A stretch of 43,309 nucleotides of DNA. Source: a virus. The position numbers were made by a program, and so were the translations under genes. Positions 24,680-40,966 of this stretch are shown here, in pieces. The stretch is taken from the IMG/VR virus record IMGVR_UViG_3300028392_001847, positions 1 through 43,309 of that record; one strand, given 5' to 3'. The number at the start of each line of letters is the position of its first letter. Within the stretch, counting starts at the first letter, position 1. Below the pieces are notes generated by a model. The model was not told the DNA's origin, ran no database searches, and was given only the letters and a program-made list of their open reading frames with translations.

Positions 24680-24739
24680 AATTTGTAGAACGCCGCGAGG
24701 GTCTACAAATTTCTTGCTTAATTAAAGGAGATTATTATG
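24679..24739 (+). promoter_or_regulatory. ROSE-like RNA thermometer in the dnaK leader
   Basis: Two hairpins precede dnaK. The first has an 11-bp stem (24679-24689 with 24702-24712). The second pairs TCTTGCTT (24712-24719) with the SD region AAGGAGA (24725-24731), with G716 bulged and one U-G pair, loop AATTA. A TTGCT strand facing the SD with a bulged G is the hallmark of ROSE thermometers. The same element precedes hsp20. Confidence 0.75.
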
Positions 24740-26644
24740 AGCAAAATCATCGGTATCGATTTAGGTACAACAAATAGCTGTGTAGCGATCCTAGAAAACG
24801 GAATTGCTAAAGTAATTGAAAACAGCGAAGGTGCTAGAACAACACCATCAATCATTGCATATACAAAAGACGAGATCCTAGTAGGTGCAACAGCAAAACG
24901 ACAAGCAGTCACAAACCCAAAGAACACAATCTACGCCAGCAAACGTCTTATTGGACGTAAGTTTGACGAGAAAGAAGTACAAAAAGACATTGACTTGATG
25001 CCATATACTATTGTCAAAGCGGACAACGGTGACGCTTGGATCGAAGCCAACGGCGAAAAGCTAGCACCACAACAAGTGTCAGCTGAAGTACTTCGCAAAA
25101 TGAAAAAGACTGCTGAAGACTATCTAGGTTATGCAGTAACGCAGGCAGTAATTACTGTACCTGCGTACTTTAATGATAGCCAACGTCAAGCTACTAAAGA
25201 TGCAGGTCGTATCGCTGGCTTAGAAGTATTGCGTATTATCAACGAACCAACAGCGGCCGCACTGGCATATGGTGTGGACAAAGCAGACAAGAAGGATCGC
25301 AAGATTGCGGTATACGACTTGGGCGGTGGTACATTTGATATCAGCATTATTGAAATTGCCAATGTGGAAGGCGATAAGCAAATTGAAGTGCTCTCCACAA
25401 ATGGCGACACCTTCTTGGGTGGCGAAGACTTTGACCAAGTAATTATGGATTACCTAGTTGACGAGTTCAAGAAAGATAATGGTGTTGATCTGAAGCAGGA
25501 TGTACTTGCTCTTCAACGTTTGAAAGAATCCGCAGAAAAGGCCAAGATTGAACTATCCAGTGCCGCAAGCACAAGCGTTAATTTGCCTTACATCACGGCA
25601 GATGCAACAGGTCCTAAACACATGAATGTAACTATCAGCCGTGCCAAGTTTGAGTCAATGGTTGAAAAGCTAATTGCTCGTTCAATTGAGCCATGTAAGA
25701 TCGCTATGACTGATGCTAAAGTAACAGCCGCAGACATTGACGAAGTTATCCTAGTTGGTGGACAAACACGTATGCCTAAAGTGCAGGAAGCAGTTGAGAA
25801 ACTGTTTGGCAAGGCTCCACGTAAAGACGTAAACCCAGACGAAGCAGTTGCCGCCGGCGCCGCCATCCAGGGTGCCGTTCTAGCAGGCGATAAGACAGAC
25901 GTATTGTTGTTAGACGTTACTCCGTTGACACTAGGTATTGAAACAATGGGCGGAGTGTTTACCAAGCTGATTGCCAAGAACACCACAATTCCAACTAAGC
26001 ACTCACAGACTTTCTCAACAGCAGAAGACAATCAACCAGCTGTAACTATCAAAGTTGCACAGGGCGAGCGTGACTTGTTTAGATACAACAAATCACTAGG
26101 TGAGTTTAACTTAGAAGGTATTGCCCCAGCAATGCGTGGTACTCCACAAATTGAAGTTACACTTGACTTAGATGCTAACGGTATTCTTAATGTAAGTGCC
26201 AAAGATAAAAACACTGGCAAAGAAAATAAGATTACTATTAAATCCGACTCAGGCCTAACTGAAGCTGAAATCCAACGTATGGTTAAAGAAGCTGAAGAAA
26301 ATGCAGAGTCAGATAAACAGCAAAAAGAGTTAATCGAAGCACGTAATCAAGCAGAATCAACTCGTCACTCTTTAAACAAAGATTATGACGAGTTCAAAGA
26401 TCAAGTTACTGAACAAGAACGTACTGATTTTGAAACTGCTAGAACTGCATTAGATGAAGCGGTGGCTGGTGAAGACAAAGAAAAAATAACTGAAGCAGTT
26501 ACTAATTTGTTTGAACAAGCTGGGCCGTTCATCACTAAGAAACAGGAAGCTGAATCTGCCAAAGCGGCAGAACCTGTACAAGCAACCGAAGGTGAAACTG
26601 TTAATGCGAGTTTTACAGAAGTTGACAAAGAAGAAAAGAAGTAA
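24737..26644 (+). CDS. dnaK: Hsp70 chaperone DnaK, full length
   Basis: This 635-residue protein is a complete DnaK. The N-terminal ATPase domain has [16 protein letters not shown], the Walker-like [12 protein letters not shown] (phosphate 2) and [11 protein letters not shown]; the linker [14 protein letters not shown] is intact; the substrate domain and helical lid follow, ending in an acidic Glu/Lys tail. Family length is about 638. It refolds proteins with DnaJ and GrpE, which are not in this window and must come from the host. Roles could be capsid folding or replication, or serving the phage IscU through its LPPVK motif. The leader contains a ROSE-like thermometer. Full-length DnaK is unusual in phages. 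Confidence 0.98.
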
Positions 26645-31249: not shown

Positions 31250-32083
31250 ATGAAAAAACTACTCACTTTATTATTTGTACTGGTTGCATTTGGAGCTACT
31301 CCGGCTCTGAGCCAAGCTCAATTGGCCACATCAACAGTACCACTACCCGCAGATATTGCCGCAATTAAGAAAGCTAATGTTCTTGTTGTGGCAATGACTA
31401 AAAAAGATGTTCCACCGTTTTTCAGCGGCGAAGGTGACAACTTACACGGTCTTGACGTTGAGATTGCTCAACGTATTGGTGTCTTACTTGGTGTTCCTGT
31501 CAAGTTCAGACGCGATGCAGAAAGTTTTGCAGAAGTTGTGGAACAGGTGCGTGACGGTCGTGCTGACATTGCTGTTAGCAAACTGTCAGTAACAGGTCCT
31601 AGACTACAAGTTGTTAGATTTAGCGATCCTTATGTTCGACTAAAACAAAGTTTGATTGTTAACCGTTTATGGCTGAGTCAAAACAGTCAAGGCAAAGAAA
31701 CATATCAAGTTATCAGAGATTTTAATGGCAAGATAAGTTTTGTCAAGAACTCCAGTTACGACACGTTTGCTCGTATTAATTTCCCCAATGCCACTTACCT
31801 TCCTGAAGAAAAGTGGGAAGTGATTATTGATAAAGTTACTCGTGGAGATATCGCTGCCGCTTATCGTGATGAATTTGAAATTAAGAAAATTTCGTTTGAG
31901 AAGCCCGATGCCGCGATCAGCACCAAGACCATTACAATCAGCGACAGTGTGGATTATATTGCCATAGCAGTGCATCCTAAAGCAATTCAATTATTAAGCG
32001 TTGTTAACTATGTTGTTAAAAATGAATACAGCGACATTAACACTAAAAAGTTAATGGAACGCTACAAAGCTGAAAAGAAATAA
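31250..32083 (+). CDS. Periplasmic amino-acid-binding protein (SBP family 3)
   Basis: This 277-residue protein has a signal peptide (MKKLLTLLFVLVAFGATPAL, cleavage near SQA-QL) and the type II periplasmic binding fold of polar amino-acid receptors: VLVVAMTKKDVPPFF, GLDVEIAQRIGVLLGVPVKF, VEQVRDGRADIAVSKLSVT and RFSDPYVRLKQSLIV. In such receptors the aspartate of GxADIA and a nearby Arg hold the amino acid; the Arg is not certain here. No ABC permease or ATPase gene follows; a sodium-type symporter starts 9 nt later instead. The leaderless-type late motif precedes it. It should bind an amino acid in the host periplasm. Confidence 0.9.
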   Translation: MKKLLTLLFVLVAFGATPALSQAQLATSTVPLPADIAAIKKANVLVVAMTKKDVPPFFSGEGDNLHGLDVEIAQRIGVLLGVPVKFRRDAESFAEVVEQVRDGRADIAVSKLSVTGPRLQVVRFSDPYVRLKQSLIVNRLWLSQNSQGKETYQVIRDFNGKISFVKNSSYDTFARINFPNATYLPEEKWEVIIDKVTRGDIAAAYRDEFEIKKISFEKPDAAISTKTITISDSVDYIAIAVHPKAIQLLSVVNYVVKNEYSDINTKKLMERYKAEKK

Positions 32084-32092
32084 GGATAAATC

Positions 32093-33385
32093 ATGATAAC
32101 AACATCACATTTAAAAAGTTTCCTGGTTAGTCCTTGGACTATTTTAGGATCAATCATCGTAGGTATAGTCTGTGGCGTGTATGCTCCTGCATTTAGTATT
32201 GGTCTCGACAGTATTGGCAGCATCTATATCAGCTTGCTCAAGGTAGTTGTACTGCCATTCTTGTTAGCAACTATTCTAGTTGGTATTATAGGACTACTAC
32301 AAAAAGAAGGTAGTGAGGCCCTGATACGCAAAATTATCATTGGCTTTGTGGGCAGTATGTTCTTGGCCGCAGTTATCGGAGTTGGCACTGTGCTGGTCAC
32401 AGGCACAGATATGACACCTGGAAAGAAAACAGAATTTGGTGTACTAGTTAACAATAAGGATACTGGCACTGAATTAAGCATTACCCTACACGAACCAATG
32501 ACAAAAGCGCCCGAAGTCAGCGCAGGTAAAATGGCTGAGAAGTTTATTCCTGAAAACATTTTTGCTACACTGAACAATGGTGAGAGTTTAAAGATTGTTA
32601 TTTTCTGTTTAATATTTGGTGTTGCCCTTGGACATTTGAAAACAGAAGGACAGCGCATGCTGGTAGAAGTTCTAAAGAGCATACAGCAGGCCAGCATCAG
32701 CATTTTTAAATTCTTAAACTACTTCTTACCTATTGCACTACTAGCAATGATTTCTGCGCAAGTTGGAAAAGTCGGAGTTGGTATATTCTTGACCATGTTT
32801 GACTTTGTGTTCCAACAGTTTGTTGGTGGACTATTAGTAATTGTGTTAGGCACCATTGTAATTTGGAAGCGTTCGGGATTAGATCTAATGACAGTGATCC
32901 GTGAAACTAAAGAAACATTAATTGTTGCTATTAGTTCACGCAGTTCGTTAGCCTGTATTCCATACGCACAAGAAGCCTTACACAAACTACATTTTGACAA
33001 GGGCGGAGTTGAACTAACTGTTCCACTAAGTTTTACAGTTAATCGTATTGGCAGTATTGTTTACTATGCTATTGCCACAGTATTCATTGCCAACATCTAT
33101 GATGCTCCATTAGGTTTTACTGGCTTATTTGTTGTGCTGTTTGGCAGTATCCTAGCTGGCTTGGCATCAGCAGGTACAACAGGTATCTTAACTGTGGCAA
33201 CAGTTGCAGTGGTATGTGACTTGTTAAAACTACCCAGCGAAGCGGTGTTGGTGTTGTTGATTGCAGTAGATCCCTTAATGGACATGATTCGCACAGCAAG
33301 TCATGTACATGGTAATGTAGCAGTAACAGCATTTGTCTGCGATAAGGAACATTCAGATGGACAAGCTGAAAGAGTTCCTACTTAG
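32093..33385 (+). CDS. Dicarboxylate/amino-acid:cation symporter (DAACS family)
   Basis: This 430-residue protein is a full-length GltP/DctA-type transporter with about eight membrane helices and two hairpins. HP1 appears as ISSRSSLACIPYAQ (about 281-294), HP2 as AGLASAGTTGILT (about 357-369), and TM8 as AVDPLMDMIRTASHVHGN (about 392-409). The TM8 Asp and Arg that hold acidic substrates in GltPh are kept, but the TM7 NMDGT motif reads NRIGS and the TM8 Asn is His, so ion coupling or substrate may differ. It should import an amino or dicarboxylic acid across the host inner membrane. It follows the binding protein by 9 nt with an AAGGATAA SD. Confidence 0.92.
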   Translation: MITTSHLKSFLVSPWTILGSIIVGIVCGVYAPAFSIGLDSIGSIYISLLKVVVLPFLLATILVGIIGLLQKEGSEALIRKIIIGFVGSMFLAAVIGVGTVLVTGTDMTPGKKTEFGVLVNNKDTGTELSITLHEPMTKAPEVSAGKMAEKFIPENIFATLNNGESLKIVIFCLIFGVALGHLKTEGQRMLVEVLKSIQQASISIFKFLNYFLPIALLAMISAQVGKVGVGIFLTMFDFVFQQFVGGLLVIVLGTIVIWKRSGLDLMTVIRETKETLIVAISSRSSLACIPYAQEALHKLHFDKGGVELTVPLSFTVNRIGSIVYYAIATVFIANIYDAPLGFTGLFVVLFGSILAGLASAGTTGILTVATVAVVCDLLKLPSEAVLVLLIAVDPLMDMIRTASHVHGNVAVTAFVCDKEHSDGQAERVPT

Positions 33386-33971
33386 TTTACTAACCTGGAT
33401 CGGTGAAAGCCCATTCAGGTTGTTCACAGTAATACTGCTGTGCTTGCTAACATTCATTGGATGGGTTGCATACACGGAAAAAGATGCGTTCATGGCCAGC
33501 TATCGTGCCCAACAATCACTGCCACGCATGAACGGCGAGTATGAAAAAGCCGCTAACTTTATACTTAAAAACAGCCAAGCAGAACTGATAGCTATATTTG
33601 AAGTTAATACTTTGTTAAACACTAGAAAATTAGTATACTTTGTTACACGCAAAGGCGGTCAAGACAAAACCATGTATGGCACCGATGTTGGTTTGCTAAC
33701 TAAAAATTACGACAACAACAACGATGTGATTTCCATGATGTCGGGTAAGATACCTTGCCAAACTTATGAAAAACCTCAGAGTCTAATGGGTTTCATCTAT
33801 GTTGAGAAAGGTGTCAAGTGGATGTGTCGTATTAGTGTTCCAGCTGAGCCTGGCATATTTATTGGACAGATATCCGTAGGCTGGACAGAAGTTCCTGCTG
33901 ATAAACAACCTGTCGACACACAACAAACAGTAATGACTGTGGCCAGCGGTCTATTGTATAATAAAAAATGA
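33357..33971 (+). CDS. Membrane-anchored protein of unknown function
   Basis: This 204-residue protein starts MDKLKEFLLSLLTWIGESPF and has one N-terminal membrane helix (about 21-40, FRLFTVILLCLLTFIGWVAY), followed by a soluble, probably periplasmic domain of about 160 residues with two Cys residues (IPCQTYE, WMCRIS) that could form a disulfide. It overlaps the symporter gene by 29 nt, so it is likely part of the same transport module. A transporter partner or regulator is possible; family not recognised. Confidence 0.75.
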   Translation: MDKLKEFLLSLLTWIGESPFRLFTVILLCLLTFIGWVAYTEKDAFMASYRAQQSLPRMNGEYEKAANFILKNSQAELIAIFEVNTLLNTRKLVYFVTRKGGQDKTMYGTDVGLLTKNYDNNNDVISMMSGKIPCQTYEKPQSLMGFIYVEKGVKWMCRISVPAEPGIFIGQISVGWTEVPADKQPVDTQQTVMTVASGLLYNKK

Positions 33972-34033
33972 GACTTCCTTCTGTCATAGCTGGTTTTATT
34001 CTAATTGTTATCTTATTGATTGCATTATTATGA
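33968..34033 (+). CDS. Tiny membrane peptide (21 aa)
   Basis: MRLPSVIAGFILIVILLIAL ends in one more Leu and a TGA. It overlaps the preceding stop (ATGA) and the next gene's start (ATGA), exactly bridging two genes. Almost the whole peptide is one membrane helix. It may be a small transporter subunit or only a coupling frame; no SD is obvious. Confidence 0.45.
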   Translation: MRLPSVIAGFILIVILLIALL

Positions 34034-34719
34034 AACGCTTAGGAGTTCTTGGTGGTATGGGGCCAGCGGCAGGTGCAGAATTCCTAGTTCGCCTTACTCA
34101 TCAAACTCCAGCCGCCTGCGACCAAGAACATATTCCAGTGATACTATGGAGCGATCCAACTGTACCCGACCGTAGTACCAGCTTGCTCAACAAAGATGAC
34201 TTGCCTTGGGAAAAACTTAAACAGGGAGTACAAGGTTTAAAAGCCGCAGGATGTGATCACATTGTTATTCCTTGTAACACAGCACATTTTTGGTATGAAA
34301 GGCTAGTGGAACTGGGTGTTCCGATTACACACATAGTAGACAGTGTAGCAGATGAATTACGTGCGCAAGATATCTCTGGCACTATTGGAATACTTGGTAC
34401 ACGAGCTACAATGAAGTTAGGCTTGTATAGTGATAGATTAAATGCGGCAGGTTGGCAGTGCATAATGCCCACAAGCAAAGAAATGGAAGACTATGTACAA
34501 CCAGGAATCGATCTAATCAAAGCCAACAAGCCCATTTCAGCCAACGGCATGTTGATGACTGCGGTTCGTTCACTAATTAAACGTGGTGCCAATGCTGTTG
34601 TGCTAGGATGTACTGAAATTCCGCTGGTGATACGAGAATATCATTGCCAAGAAATTCCGTTAATAAATAGTATTGACAGCTTGGTAAAAGCATCAATTAA
34701 TAAATTCAAAAGGAATTAA
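34030..34719 (+). CDS. Aspartate/glutamate racemase family protein
   Basis: This 229-residue protein matches the PLP-independent Asp/Glu racemase family: KRLGVLGGMGPAAGAEFL (1-20), first catalytic Cys in VIPCNTAHFW (about 82), second in VLGCTEIPLV (about 199). These enzymes interconvert L- and D-aspartate or related acids by a two-cysteine mechanism. Both cysteines and the (N)TAH context are intact. Placement behind a binding protein and an acidic-amino-acid-type symporter suggests handling of imported Asp/Glu or supply of D-Asp/D-Glu. Amino-acid racemase YgeA-like enzymes with broader substrates are an alternative. Confidence 0.92.
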   Translation: MKRLGVLGGMGPAAGAEFLVRLTHQTPAACDQEHIPVILWSDPTVPDRSTSLLNKDDLPWEKLKQGVQGLKAAGCDHIVIPCNTAHFWYERLVELGVPITHIVDSVADELRAQDISGTIGILGTRATMKLGLYSDRLNAAGWQCIMPTSKEMEDYVQPGIDLIKANKPISANGMLMTAVRSLIKRGANAVVLGCTEIPLVIREYHCQEIPLINSIDSLVKASINKFKRN

Positions 34720-36410: not shown

Positions 36411-37187
36411 ATGCAGAAAACTTATCGTAGCATTTTTATTTCTGACGTACACCTTGGCACACGTGACTCACAAGCTGCCAAGCTCAACAACTTTCTCAAA
36501 CACAATACATGCGAAACATTATATCTTGTAGGAGATATTATCGATGCATGGAAAATTCAACAAAACAAATGGCGATGGAAACAAAGCCATACAAATGTTG
36601 TTCGCCGTGTACTTGGCCATGCCAAACGTGGCACTAGGGTTGTATACGTGGCTGGAAATCATGACGAATTCCTGCGCCCGATGATACCATATGGTTTTAG
36701 TTTTGGTCTTGTTGAAATACACAATCAAACAGAACACATAGGTGCAGATGGCAAACACTATCTTGTAACACACGGTGATTTGTTTGATGGCATTACTAGA
36801 CTTGCTCCGTGGCTTGCTTTTTTGGGAGACAAGTTATACGATTTAGTATTAGATTGGAACAGTAGATTCAATTGGATACGCCATAAGTTAGGCTTTGGTT
36901 ACTGGAGTCTTAGTAAATATCTCAAGCACAAAGTCAAGAAGGCCTCGGACTTTATGTTTCAATTTGAAAAGAATCTAGCAGGCTATTGTAAAAAGCGCGG
37001 CTTTGACGGTGTTATATGCGGACATATACATCACGCTGAAATAAAAGAAATAGACGGCGTCACATACATGAATGATGGTGACTGGGTTGAAAGTTGTACG
37101 GCCTTGGTTGAACACCACGATGGTAAGTGGGAGATAATCACATGGACACGAGAGAATGACAAAGACGATACTGATAATAACGGATAA
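36411..37187 (+). CDS. plcP: PlcP-like metallophosphoesterase (phospholipase C of lipid renovation)
   Basis: This 258-residue calcineurin-like phosphoesterase has ISDVHLGT (Asp12, His14), LVGDIIDAW, VYVAGNHDEFL, VTHGDLFD, and VICGHIHHAE. The later blocks (NWIRHKLGFGYWSLSKYLKH, MNDGDWVESCTALVEH) match the alphaproteobacterial group long annotated as UDP-2,3-diacylglucosamine hydrolase, several of which are PlcP. PlcP removes the head group of phospholipids to give diacylglycerol during phosphate stress. The next gene, overlapping by 32 nt, is an Agt-like glycosyltransferase, the usual partner. A true LpxH function is less likely because no other lipid A gene is present. Confidence 0.87.
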   Translation: MQKTYRSIFISDVHLGTRDSQAAKLNNFLKHNTCETLYLVGDIIDAWKIQQNKWRWKQSHTNVVRRVLGHAKRGTRVVYVAGNHDEFLRPMIPYGFSFGLVEIHNQTEHIGADGKHYLVTHGDLFDGITRLAPWLAFLGDKLYDLVLDWNSRFNWIRHKLGFGYWSLSKYLKHKVKKASDFMFQFEKNLAGYCKKRGFDGVICGHIHHAEIKEIDGVTYMNDGDWVESCTALVEHHDGKWEIITWTRENDKDDTDNNG

Positions 37188-38154
37188 TCTTAAGGATCAA
37201 ATCAATGGTGTTGTTACGACCTACAAAAATATTGAGATTTGTGCTGTTCGTGACGGTTATAACGTTGTGGTGTTGGATCCCGGGTGGTTCAGCTACATTG
37301 ATTGCCCTGGCTACAACGAAGTCAAGATTGCCTATCCGCGGAACCTGGGCAAGAAGATTGCGGAGATATCTCCGGATTATATCCATGTCGCCACAGAGGG
37401 TCCTCTTGGTCTGTGGGCTAGAGCATATCTTTCATTGGCTGGTGTTCCTCACAATACCGCTTATCATACTAAGTTTCCAGAAGGACTTAAGAAGCTGTTT
37501 GGAATACCTGAGTGGATCACTTGGCGCTTTGTACGCTGGTTTCATAAGCATAGCGGTAAAGTTTTAACCACTACAGACAGTATGGTTCGAGAATTGCAAG
37601 CACATGGGTTTGATGGTGAGGTTATTTCCTGGACTCGTGGTGTTGACCGTGCGATCTTTACTCCCGATCTTAGAGAAGATGCGCCAGCCAAATATTTGTT
37701 ATGTGTCAGCCGCGTGAGTAAAGAAAAGAATTTAGAAAAGTTTTTTGAACTGGACTATCCAGGATACCTAAAGATCATGGTGGGCGATGGTCCCATGCTG
37801 GAAAAGTATAAGAAGCATTATCCAGCAGTGCATTTTACAGGTTTCAAAACTGGCAAAGATTTGGCACGTTACTATGCCAATGCCGAAGTATTTGTATTTC
37901 CCAGCCAGTGGGAAACATTTGGTATTGTTATGATTGAAGCAATGTCTTGCGGTACACCAGTTGCGGCTTTTCCGTGCCAAGGCCCAGAAGATGTAATTGA
38001 TCAAGCTGAAACAGGATTCATGAATGAAAATTTAGAGGATGCTGTTACTGCTTGCTTACAACTCAACAGAGATCGTGTTTACAAAGGTAGTCAACGTTGG
38101 TCTTGGGACCGTGCCTGGGATATATTCCGCGACAATTTAATTCCTACTAAATAG
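37156..38154 (+). CDS. agt: Agt-like glycolipid glycosyltransferase (GT4)
   Basis: This 332-residue GT-B enzyme starts MTKTILIITDNLKDQINGVV, the N-terminal lobe with IHVATEGPLGLWARAYLSLA and NTAYHTKFPEGLKKLFG, then WTRGVDRAIFTPD and the C-terminal lobe donor site LLCVSRVSKEKNLEKF, MVGDGPMLEKYKK, and FPSQWETFGIVMIEAMSCGT (EX7E type). This pattern fits the GT4 enzymes that transfer sugar to diacylglycerol (Agt, SQD2-like). With PlcP it would convert phospholipid into glycolipid, releasing phosphate. The donor sugar cannot be told. It lies in the same transcript as plcP. Confidence 0.87.
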   Translation: MTKTILIITDNLKDQINGVVTTYKNIEICAVRDGYNVVVLDPGWFSYIDCPGYNEVKIAYPRNLGKKIAEISPDYIHVATEGPLGLWARAYLSLAGVPHNTAYHTKFPEGLKKLFGIPEWITWRFVRWFHKHSGKVLTTTDSMVRELQAHGFDGEVISWTRGVDRAIFTPDLREDAPAKYLLCVSRVSKEKNLEKFFELDYPGYLKIMVGDGPMLEKYKKHYPAVHFTGFKTGKDLARYYANAEVFVFPSQWETFGIVMIEAMSCGTPVAAFPCQGPEDVIDQAETGFMNENLEDAVTACLQLNRDRVYKGSQRWSWDRAWDIFRDNLIPTK

Positions 38155-38419: not shown

Positions 38420-39055
38420 ATGAAACCCACAATTGCTCTTTTCCTGTATGATCCTAAATGTAGCGTACAGTCGGGCAATGGAGTCATTCACGCATTACAA
38501 GACTATTACAATTTTAAAATTTTCAGCATTAACGAACTGGAAGACACCTTCTTTGACGATGTAGATATCGTAGCTGTGCCAGGCGGATTCGGAGATGCTG
38601 GATCATTTGATCGAGCATTTAAACACAACAAACAACGTATTAAAAACTTTGTCCGTGACGGCGGCAAATACTTGGGTATTTGTATGGGTGCTTACTGGGC
38701 TGGCAAGCACTACTTTGATATATTAAATAATGTAGATGCTGTACAGTATATAACACGACCAAATACAGACACAAGGAGACCACATGCTAAAGATATCAAA
38801 ATTAAATGGAATAACCTTGATACAACAATGTTTTTTTACGATGGTTGTGCTTTGGTTGGTAACGGTCAGTACGATCGAATCTCTACATACGCGAATGGCG
38901 ATTCAATGGCAATCATTCAGGAAAACATAGGATTAATAGGTGCCCATCCAGAGGCTGAACCTTTCTGGTATGACGGTTATACTTGGATGCGGGGAAAATA
39001 TGCCAGCAAGCATGATTTACTTTTAGACTTTGTTGACCAGCTAAATAGTGTATGA
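38420..39055 (+). CDS. Glutamine-amidotransferase-like protein (BPL_N type)
   Basis: This 211-residue class I amidotransferase-fold protein has VDIVAVPGGFGDAGSFDRAF (about 48-67), the nucleophile elbow KYLGICMGAYWAG (Cys near 90) and a late IGAHPEAEPFWYDGY with His. The order matches the BPL_N family, fused in some organisms to biotin-protein ligase, whose role is unclear. A glutamine-hydrolysing partner subunit is absent, so it may be a hydrolase or peptidase-like enzyme on an unknown substrate. It overlaps the GH19-like gene by ATGA. Confidence 0.8.
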   Translation: MKPTIALFLYDPKCSVQSGNGVIHALQDYYNFKIFSINELEDTFFDDVDIVAVPGGFGDAGSFDRAFKHNKQRIKNFVRDGGKYLGICMGAYWAGKHYFDILNNVDAVQYITRPNTDTRRPHAKDIKIKWNNLDTTMFFYDGCALVGNGQYDRISTYANGDSMAIIQENIGLIGAHPEAEPFWYDGYTWMRGKYASKHDLLLDFVDQLNSV

Positions 39056-39844: not shown

Positions 39845-40561
39845 TTATATTAGATCGGTTCTTACGATACTAGCAAGTCCTAGTAGGCTAAACACTCTTA
39901 GCCATGCATATCCTAAGTCAAACTCAAACCACTTGCGACTAAGTTTAACACTAGCCGGCGACAAGTGATGATTATTATGCAGTTCCTCACCGCCAACCAC
40001 AATTCCCCATGGAACTAAATTAGTACTCTTATCACGAGACTCACCATTGCGATATCCTAGCCAATGACCTAGCCCGTTGATAACTCCGGCGGCCCAGAAA
40101 GGGATCCATATCATTTGTACACCCCACACTACTAGGCCCCACGGTCCAAAGAACAGGCAGTCTATGACCAGCATTAGAAGAATACCGAGGCGGCTATGGG
40201 GTGTATAAATGACACGTTCTATCCAATCGTCAGGAGTACCTACTCCAAACTTGTTGATCATGTCTTTGTCTTTGCTGGCATCATGATACAGGCCTGCACC
40301 TTTAAAGAACACACGAGTAATGCCATAAACATGCGGCGAGTGCGGATCGCCTTCTTTATCGCTAAATGCGTGATGTTTACGATGTATTGCCACCCATTGT
40401 TTAGTGACCATCCCAGTTGTTAGCCATAACCAGCTTCGCATGAAATGTTCTAGCACTGGATGGAATTTTATTCCTCTATGAGCTTGGCCTCGATGCAAAA
40501 ACAAAGTCACACATACTATCGTGATATGTGTGACTACCAGAGTGTATAAAATTATATCCAT
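39845..40561 (-). CDS. Fatty-acid desaturase (delta-9 acyl-CoA/acyl-lipid type)
   Basis: This 238-residue membrane protein has the three His boxes of the membrane diiron desaturases: HRGQAH (23-28), HRKHH (60-64) and HNNHH (near 195), between hydrophobic segments at about 5-22, 38-55, 125-150 and 155-170. The spacing fits the delta-9-type front-end-free desaturases. It would introduce a double bond into host acyl chains, raising membrane fluidity. It is shorter than many bacterial homologues (about 280-300). Its position next to the lipid genes plcP and agt (opposite strand) suggests coordinated membrane remodelling. It needs an electron donor such as ferredoxin. Confidence 0.92.
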   Translation of the reverse strand: MDIILYTLVVTHITIVCVTLFLHRGQAHRGIKFHPVLEHFMRSWLWLTTGMVTKQWVAIHRKHHAFSDKEGDPHSPHVYGITRVFFKGAGLYHDASKDKDMINKFGVGTPDDWIERVIYTPHSRLGILLMLVIDCLFFGPWGLVVWGVQMIWIPFWAAGVINGLGHWLGYRNGESRDKSTNLVPWGIVVGGEELHNNHHLSPASVKLSRKWFEFDLGYAWLRVFSLLGLASIVRTDLI

Positions 40562-40749
40562 TAGGCGTATGTTGCCGTAGCATTCACTGAAGACGCATGT
40601 AATAATTCACCACTTTCACTATATACTTTAGAAGAATGGGCTGTCCCATCATCTGCACTTTTAATTGCTTCTTCTAAGCTATCAAAGATGTGTTCTATAG
40701 TAGTAAGAACTCCAGCTTTCCAGTAGTGTTTTCTAACTCTGTGAGACAT
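40561..40749 (-). CDS. Small paralogous protein, copy A (62 aa)
   Basis: MSHRVRKHYWKAGVLTTIEH then IFDSLEEAIKSADDGTAHSS and KVYSESGELLHASS... It shares layout and residues with the next upstream gene: a basic start, W-x-(A/N)-G-(V/I)-L-x-T-(V/I)-EH-x-FD-(S/T)-L-xEA, then AH-x-x-KVY-x-ES. It overlaps the desaturase start by one base. A short alpha/beta protein, possibly a dimerising adaptor. No known family. Confidence 0.72.
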   Translation of the reverse strand: MSHRVRKHYWKAGVLTTIEHIFDSLEEAIKSADDGTAHSSKVYSESGELLHASSVNATATYA

Positions 40750-40753
40750 CTTA

Positions 40754-40966
40754 TTAGGCGTATGTTTCTCTAATATTGCTTTGATCTACAACTAATTCAG
40801 TAGAATGTGAAAATACCATTTCACTGCTTTCGTTATAGACTTTTACAGTATGTGCATTGCTACTTTTTGCATGATCTAATGCTTCTGCTAGTGTGTCAAA
40901 AAAGTGCTCAACAGTTTTAAGAATTCCGTTGTGCCAGTGGTGTTTTTTTACGTGGTGTTTTGTCAT
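40754..40966 (-). CDS. Small paralogous protein, copy B (70 aa)
   Basis: MTKHHVKKHHWHNGILKTVE then HFFDTLAEALDHAKSSNAHT and VKVYNESSEMVFSH... This is a tandem paralogue of the gene at 40561-40749, with a His-rich N-terminus (HHVKKHHWH) and a longer C-terminal tail, and both end in TYA. The two are 4 nt apart, showing recent local duplication and divergence. Function unknown; the shared AH-x-x-KVY-x-ES strand may form a small ligand- or protein-binding surface. Confidence 0.72.
   Translation of the reverse strand: MTKHHVKKHHWHNGILKTVEHFFDTLAEALDHAKSSNAHTVKVYNESSEMVFSHSTELVVDQSNIRETYA

Follow-up and report, generated by a model that had tools for sequence, protein, structure and literature searches.

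The 43.3 kb stretch of DNA analysed here (the window) comprises positions 1–43,309 of the IMG/VR virus record IMGVR_UViG_3300028392_001847 and encodes, on its plus strand, a phosphoesterase followed by a glycosyltransferase (GT). The pair is probably a viral membrane-remodelling module, a reading to which we give a probability of about two in three, in which phospholipid would be converted to diacylglycerol (DAG) and then to glycolipid, sparing phosphate. Family placement, gene pairing, purifying selection, a pstS linkage in some relatives and a change in the catalytic site of the GT are established. The phosphoesterase gene (36411–37187, ATG start, 258 aa) specifies a PlcP-type calcineurin-like protein, a predicted phospholipid phosphodiesterase (phospholipase C), and the GT gene (37156–38154, ATG start, 332 aa) a GT4 enzyme of the Agt lineage with a GT-B fold, a predicted DAG glycosyltransferase. 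A first reading of the window made from its letters alone (the sequence-only reading) had described two open reading frames (ORFs) overlapping by 32 nt, and this was confirmed, with both ORFs on the plus strand; the overlap (37156–37187, plus strand, from the ORF limits) suggests that translation of the two genes may be coupled.

Family assignment of the phosphoesterase

The phosphoesterase matched the Pfam family Metallophos (PF00149, 8e-11). The motifs DxH, GD, GNHD and GHIHH previously noted in it were all located, as D12-V-H14 (36444–36452, plus strand), G41D42, G82-N-H-D85 (36654–36665, plus strand) and G204-H-I-H-H (37020–37034, plus strand), together with H121. D12, H14, G204, H205 and H207 were invariant in an alignment of 39 sequences (A4), and the calcineurin metal site with GNHD was present both in this alignment and in alignment A1. 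A plasmid record of Pseudomonas aeruginosa contained a homologue of the phosphoesterase, followed by a glycosyltransferase and then by a cyclase-domain gene; we take the first two genes to be PA3219 and PA3218, on the basis of the gene order and of PA3217 being a cyclase. The window protein was 53.8 % identical to the apparent PA3219 over 247 aa. According to PMC8528852, deletion of PA3219 (plcP) led to the loss of one glycolipid and a strong reduction of another, and PA3219 is 46–47 % identical to its PlcP counterparts in S. meliloti and Phaeobacter (MED193). The window protein is therefore as near to a supported PlcP as known PlcPs are to one another.

Automatic annotation would make the protein an LpxH-type lipid A enzyme, which is very improbable. 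In related phage records the gene is labelled UDP-2,3-diacylglucosamine hydrolase or diphosphatase, and the solved fold nearest to the predicted structure (predicted local distance difference test score, pLDDT, 82) was LpxH (TMq 0.54–0.57), as is expected because both belong to the same superfamily. The apparent PA3219 also bears an LpxH-type automatic name, yet its genetics gives it a PlcP role. Two NCBIfam LpxH models scored the window protein at 47.1 and 37.6 bits, far below their cut-offs of 134 and 190.35, and identity to Escherichia coli LpxH was 22.5 % over only 120 aa. GNRD is visible in E. coli LpxH at the position of GNHD, and GNHD was present in all 145 viral and all 119 bacterial phosphoesterases with at least 225 aligned aa (loci counted without dereplication); two of three named phage records had GNHD and the other GNHE. 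In the phosphoesterase tree (a quick tree, like all those in this work) the viral proteins nested within bacterial PlcP-like proteins and the LpxH branch was very long; the root was placed on LpxH by choice, and the row of a faecal phage was present twice, once among the bacteria. Tree and sub-cut-off scores bore out the expectation that the protein would group with bacterial PlcP-like proteins and not with true LpxH, and an LpxH identity was rejected on scores, motif and similarity. By these sequence comparisons the phosphoesterase is a member of the PlcP family, with the predicted activity of making DAG from phosphatidylglycerol or phosphatidylethanolamine.

Occurrence and relationships of the viral genes

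Searches of viral contigs for the same gene pair revealed a real and common viral module. A scan for relatives of the phosphoesterase found one encoded in at least 598 of 600 candidate stretches, and 80 loci, 85–97 % identical to the window protein, were kept; a scan for relatives of the GT found one in 326 of 346 candidate stretches. Both figures are well above what chance would give. The two-gene set was present on at least 100 related virus fragments. With both scans pooled and without dereplication, 77 of the 111 viral loci that had both genes showed them overlapping or no more than 50 nt apart. The viral contig scans used in this work overlap, some contigs having been fetched by more than one. 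Both genes were under purifying selection, with NG86 ratios of non-synonymous to synonymous substitution (dN/dS) of 0.035 and 0.040 in two of four phosphoesterase pairs (the other two were dS-saturated) and of 0.085–0.205 in all four GT pairs.

The viral phosphoesterases formed one side of a branch in the tree, with a Shimodaira–Hasegawa-like approximate likelihood ratio test (SH-aLRT) value of 95. The closest full-length bacterial proteins found came from Hellea/Hyphomonadaceae (61 % identity) and a gammaproteobacterium (58 %), and a 91 aa bacterial fragment (locus L137) was 67 % identical; one bacterial scan required exact eight-residue words and the others covered samples of taxa, so that closer bacteria are possible. 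As the full-length bacterial proteins found were at most 61 % identical, the viral lineage was considered separate. Bacterial matches (E ≤ 1e-30) were obtained in 103 of 369 sampled Gammaproteobacteria and in 100 of 289 sampled Alphaproteobacteria. The sequence-only reading had placed the known pair in marine Alphaproteobacteria, to which it is not confined, and a recent origin from that group was not supported by the two best full-length identities.

That the pair is passenger host DNA, or part of a mis-binned bacterial fragment, and has no function in the virus is hardly credible and already largely refuted. Such an explanation could appeal to the window, where no clear capsid or terminase gene was found among the ORFs scanned (the one hint was that a virion structural family matched weakly), and to the scan described below with the phosphoesterase of pelagiphage Mosig, some loci of which may be bacterial. 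The viral phosphoesterases and GTs nevertheless fall in clades of their own, with the ceiling on full-length bacterial identity given above, and are under purifying selection, and some of the related records are clearly phages, the capsid protein Gp23 having been found in 10 of 35 chosen ones (0 of 14 control genomes). Terminase matches, in seven of 44 related records, are weaker evidence since six of the 14 control genomes matched as well; many of the related records are fragments.

More distant relatives were also seen. Mosig, an isolate, encodes a phosphoesterase 50 % identical to that of the window, and a phage record from human faeces (MT836169, locus L084) one that is 43 % identical. A Parabacteroides plasmid carries a 43.5 % identical protein, so the family also reaches Bacteroidota. 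No close isolate that would point to a host was found; the ribonucleotide reductase of the window pointed weakly to Xanthomonas phage X1 (60 %, among the matches listed). The published gene list of X1 includes an lpxH gene, and X1 was not among the five records that matched the phosphoesterase at 1e-5.

Two alternative partner glycosyltransferases

A downstream partner was defined as a GT gene on the same strand within 1.5 kb of the phosphoesterase gene. The 80 loci of the phosphoesterase scan included 66 distinct ones, 11 of which had less than 900 nt downstream; in the 55 that could be assessed, a GT was found in 54 (GT4 in 31, GT2-type in 23). The remaining locus (L022) had neither type and no locus had both. 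The scan with the Mosig phosphoesterase gave 63 distinct loci after removal of two partial and 15 duplicate loci: GT4 was present in 35, GT2 in 11 and neither in eight, and nine had too little sequence. From the other direction, a scan with the GT2 partner (18 duplicates removed) gave 62 distinct loci, with a phosphoesterase no more than 1.5 kb upstream in 59, none in one and too little sequence in two. Among bacterial phosphoesterase loci, GT4 was found in 79 of the 122 flanks examined, many of which were short.

Mapping the partner type onto a phosphoesterase tree of 117 rows required 25 changes, at least eight of them forced by well-supported branches (114 of 203 labelled distinct phosphoesterases remained after thinning, and 24 of 227 had no nearby GT and were omitted). 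One GT2 representative passed the Pfam cut-offs of both GT2 and GT21 (GT21, 29.4 against 21.7 bits), the better match being the general GT2 family. In PMC8231724, GT4 and GT21 are among the glycoglycerolipid synthase families, and GT21 includes processive DAG glycosyltransferases of rhizobia. If two unrelated GTs replace each other behind the phosphoesterase, the best explanation is that both use the same intermediate, and DAG would fit that part.

A rebuilt catalytic site in the GT4 partner

The window GT matched Glycos_transf_1 (PF00534, 1e-24) and Glyco_transf_4 in Pfam and was 38.4 % identical over 331 aa to the apparent PA3218 (Agt1). Purified Agt1 makes monoglucosyl-DAG from DAG and UDP-glucose (PMC8528852). 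The viral GTs formed a clade with a support of 100 and were kin of the agt genes that lie beside plcP. The structural model (pLDDT 93.3) had a GT4-type fold; BshA, sucrose-phosphate synthase and glycogen synthase were the nearest structures and PimA ranked lower, and no DAG-type GT4 structure was among the 50 matches listed by Foldseek.

The Agt motif is given as FPSXTDTFG, and in the SAR11 enzyme Asp256 is essential, the D256E change costing more than 90 % of the activity (PMC8231724). The corresponding donor-site motif of the window GT is FPSQWETFG (37897–37923, plus strand), with W252-E253 (37909–37914) where bacterial Agt partners have T-D, so that the catalytic Asp is not kept and Glu253 stands in its place. 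Both signatures that had been noted in the protein, TEGPLGLWAR and EX7E (E253...E261), are in the sequence; the view that EX7E is typical of Agt had to be dropped, as characterized Agt enzymes are DX7E and the viral GT departs from them here. Other residues essential in the SAR11 enzyme were kept (G82, G85, H104, R161, R186, K191, T254, G256, E261 and W317), and those assigned to DAG binding (H104, R161 and W317) were conserved or nearly so; all were placed by motif alignment. Because of its altered catalytic site the GT is termed here an Agt-derived viral variant and not an Agt.

Counting only GTs aligned over 250 aa or more, with shorter fragments excluded, 85 of 87 distinct viral GTs had Trp-Glu and two had Thr-Asp, and 77 of 78 distinct bacterial GT4s at phosphoesterase loci had Thr-Asp and one Thr-Glu. 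Because WETFGIVM served as the search pattern of the GT scan, that scan over-collected Trp-Glu types; in the phosphoesterase scan alone Trp-Glu was found in 35 of the 37 loci with a readable motif (five further loci were unreadable). The GTs of the Mosig scan had Val-Asp (13), Trp-Asp (seven), Thr-Asp (six), Ala-Asp (three), Trp-Glu (three) or Ser-Asp (two), the motif being absent from one. In a tree of 78 rows reconstructed with both residues masked, Trp was gained once (support for the Trp clade 93) and Glu was gained once within that clade (support for the Trp-Glu group 87). The most parsimonious order of change would be Thr-Asp to Trp-Asp to Trp-Glu, and the Trp-Asp intermediates occur in the same arrangement of phosphoesterase and GT. 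The enzyme offers a clear case of a glycosyltransferase whose catalytic site was rebuilt step by step.

The one bacterial Thr-Glu protein (L282:2259–3350) is the sole GT4 beside a bacterial plcP with this pair of residues, an apparent Asp-to-Glu change without Trp. It is 50 % identical to PA3218 and adjoins plcP; it is absent from the 78-row masked tree. Since this plcP neighbour also has Glu, the residue need not be fatal, and Glu may be functional there too.

A loss of the catalytic Asp across the viral clade, at a position essential in the SAR11 Agt, is what would be seen if the Trp-Glu site reflected a switch to another acceptor or donor, such as a lipopolysaccharide sugar, in which case the GT4 would no longer act on DAG and the two genes would be neighbours without a shared product. 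This is decidedly unlikely in view of the closeness or overlap of the two genes, the conservation of the DAG-binding residues and the presence of the Trp-Asp intermediates in the same gene arrangement. We infer that the enzyme, even with its altered catalytic residues, continues to glycosylate DAG.

Linkage to phosphate acquisition

Of 230 distinct viral phosphoesterase loci, 17 had a PstS-like gene in the flank examined, as detected by BLAST from four seeds. All 17 were on the phosphoesterase strand, 13 upstream (nine with no more than 130 nt between ORF limits) and four downstream, and the three that were tested all passed the NCBIfam PstS cut-offs (e.g. 426.9 against 339 bits). The PstS fold family PF12849 was present in four of 35 chosen whole records, each time about 1.5 kb or less from the pair by contig coordinates, and in Mosig the phosphoesterase gene is divergent from a gene annotated as a phosphate ABC transporter. 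The adjacency of pstS to some copies links the module to phosphate and gives independent support to the phosphate role that the sequence-only reading had proposed.

Proposed role of the module

In the scheme that we favour, the phosphoesterase would cleave the phosphorylated head group off host phosphatidylglycerol or phosphatidylethanolamine, leaving DAG, which the GT4 would then glycosylate with a nucleotide sugar as donor. The resulting phosphorus-free glycolipid, possibly virus-specific, would replace the lost phospholipid and keep the bilayer intact, and the freed phosphorus would enter the pool of the infected cell and from there phage DNA. The substrates, the product, the sugar that is transferred and the fate of the released phosphorus are all inferred here.

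Several observations weigh against this scheme. PlcP releases the head group with its phosphate still attached, and inorganic phosphate would be obtained only through the action of another phosphatase. Neither type of GT was present in eight of the 54 assessable distinct loci of the Mosig scan, and the complete records of Mosig and S-SRM01 lack a GT4 match though the phosphoesterase is present. No pstS was found in the examined flank of 213 of the 230 viral phosphoesterase loci, nor among the Pfam-scanned ORFs of the window record. No Pho box was seen near the phosphoesterase gene at up to three mismatches, though the host may use a different consensus, and across the window there were three matches against 4.8 expected. 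The GT has Glu where the Asp of SAR11 is essential, and its reaction may have changed.

The main rival to phosphate sparing keeps the chemistry and changes its purpose: the host envelope would be altered in charge, receptor environment or stability, with the effect of blocking superinfection or delaying lysis, while any phosphate gain would be incidental. Glycosyltransferases that modify surfaces are well known in phages, a desaturase is also encoded in the window, the alternation of two unrelated GTs behind the phosphoesterase would be expected if the sugar itself were selected, and pstS is missing from the great majority of the flanks, as just noted. The rival is nonetheless rather unlikely, as pstS, where found, was always on the phosphoesterase strand and mostly upstream of the gene, and as PlcP would supply an intracellular DAG pool that a pure change of surface sugar would not need.

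The phosphate-sparing scheme can be carried further, tentatively and at somewhat less than even odds, to a lipid-remodelling pathway that viruses evolved for themselves and did not borrow from the host: a virus-only PlcP lineage with two interchangeable unrelated GTs, a GT4 site rebuilt from Thr-Asp through Trp-Asp to Trp-Glu, a glycolipid foreign to the host, and pstS and membrane recycling together feeding phage DNA. In this extended form Trp perhaps permits an Asp-to-Glu change that would otherwise be crippling. The initial interpretation is thus supported in part: its PlcP placement and viral module are borne out and its phosphate role gains support, whereas EX7E is not typical of Agt and the pair occurs beyond marine Alphaproteobacteria.

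Phage genomes are rich in phosphorus and many waters are poor in it, and the known responses of phages to phosphorus shortage (pstS, phoH) act on uptake. If the scheme is true, the phage would draw phosphorus from the membrane of its host, and measurable lipids are predicted in infected cells. With about 4 × 10^5 phosphates in a 200 kb genome, 50 copies hold about 2 × 10^7, a number similar to that of the phospholipids in an E. coli cell, so that the membrane store of phosphorus is of the same order as the need of a burst.

A phage-borne plcP, or a plcP–glycosyltransferase pair, was not described among the literature matches listed, a search whose scope left out most subscription papers and preprints. 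lpxH appears in viral gene lists (PMC9611531, PMC10653327 and PMC13384950). Some of these entries may be misnamed PlcP-type genes, and a better name is suggested for some of the genes that pipelines call lpxH.

Neighbouring genes

Downstream of the pair, the gene at 38420–39055 (plus strand) encodes a BPL_N/class-I amidotransferase-like protein (PF09825, 1.5e-10). Similar proteins were found in 49 of 157 viral loci, in 40 of the 49 on the strand of the phosphoesterase or GT, and the gene is a recurrent third gene with a possible accessory role. A desaturase reported near the pair on the opposite strand is real (39845–40561, minus strand): it is a DesA-type fatty acid desaturase (NF049918, 404.5 bits, cut-off 400, covering model positions 9–242 of 385). 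Its association with the pair is loose (22 of 157 viral loci), so that a place in the core of the module was rejected as weak; it may be a further lipid gene serving the same programme, though the link is weak.

Other genes recognized by profile and similarity searches were those for ribonucleotide reductase, DnaK, an exonuclease, an endolysin-type protein and a tail-fibre-type protein; no tRNA genes were found in the window. The DnaK (24737–26641; HSP70, PF00012, 6e-256) is full-length, and its matches include several phage records of more than 480 kb. A cassette at 31250–34719 combines genes for a periplasmic substrate-binding protein and a sodium:dicarboxylate symporter with one for a racemase scoring above the cut-off for cysteate racemase (221.8 against 190 bits), and is possibly an amino-acid uptake module. 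Two small adjoining similar ORFs of 62 and 70 aa (40561–40966, minus strand) are, judged by eye, apparently tandem paralogues. Promoter-like sites were not in excess of chance (15 seen, 15.9 expected); terminator-like sites were, with 12 against 4.5 expected.

On related viral contigs, NifU_N and Fe-S_biosyn proteins (IscU- and IscA-like; L211:2375–2794 and L217:2658–2993) were recognized, the former resembling ORFs in 16 of 157 viral loci and the latter in 15. A RimK-like ATP-grasp protein (L187:4099–4998) was near the pair in 17 of 157, and a protein that by eye looks peroxiredoxin-like (L207:6454–7014) in 16 of 157.

Comparison with known systems

The viral phosphoesterase resembles the PlcPs of P. 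aeruginosa (PA3219), MED193 (MED193_17359), SAR11 (PB7211_983) and S. meliloti in its metal motifs, in GNHD and in the GT gene downstream. It differs from them in its location on virus records, its separate viral clade, the lack of a visible Pho box and, in the phosphoesterase scan, its nearly constant association with a GT of either the one or the other type. LpxH shares with it the superfamily and the fold, as well as the name given by automatic annotation and in viral gene lists, but the viral protein falls below both LpxH cut-offs, has GNHD and is linked to glycosyltransferases and in some relatives to pstS.

The viral GT4, like the Agt or GTcp proteins PA3218 (Agt1), PB7211_960 of SAR11 and atu2297 of A. 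tumefaciens, which are GT4 DAG glycosyltransferases, lies next to a plcP, and it keeps by motif alignment their sugar-donor and DAG-binding residues; in contrast to them, T-D has become W-E, and viral proteins with W-D or T-D branch close by in the tree. The alternative viral partner, which is not in the window, recalls the processive GT21 Pgt of rhizobia in passing the GT21 cut-off (one representative) and sits downstream of the phosphoesterase, but fits the general GT2 family better. Phage-encoded pstS is known from cyanophages. The pstS beside some viral phosphoesterases is likewise a phage gene for phosphate acquisition, but here it is joined with a predicted lipid-recycling pair.

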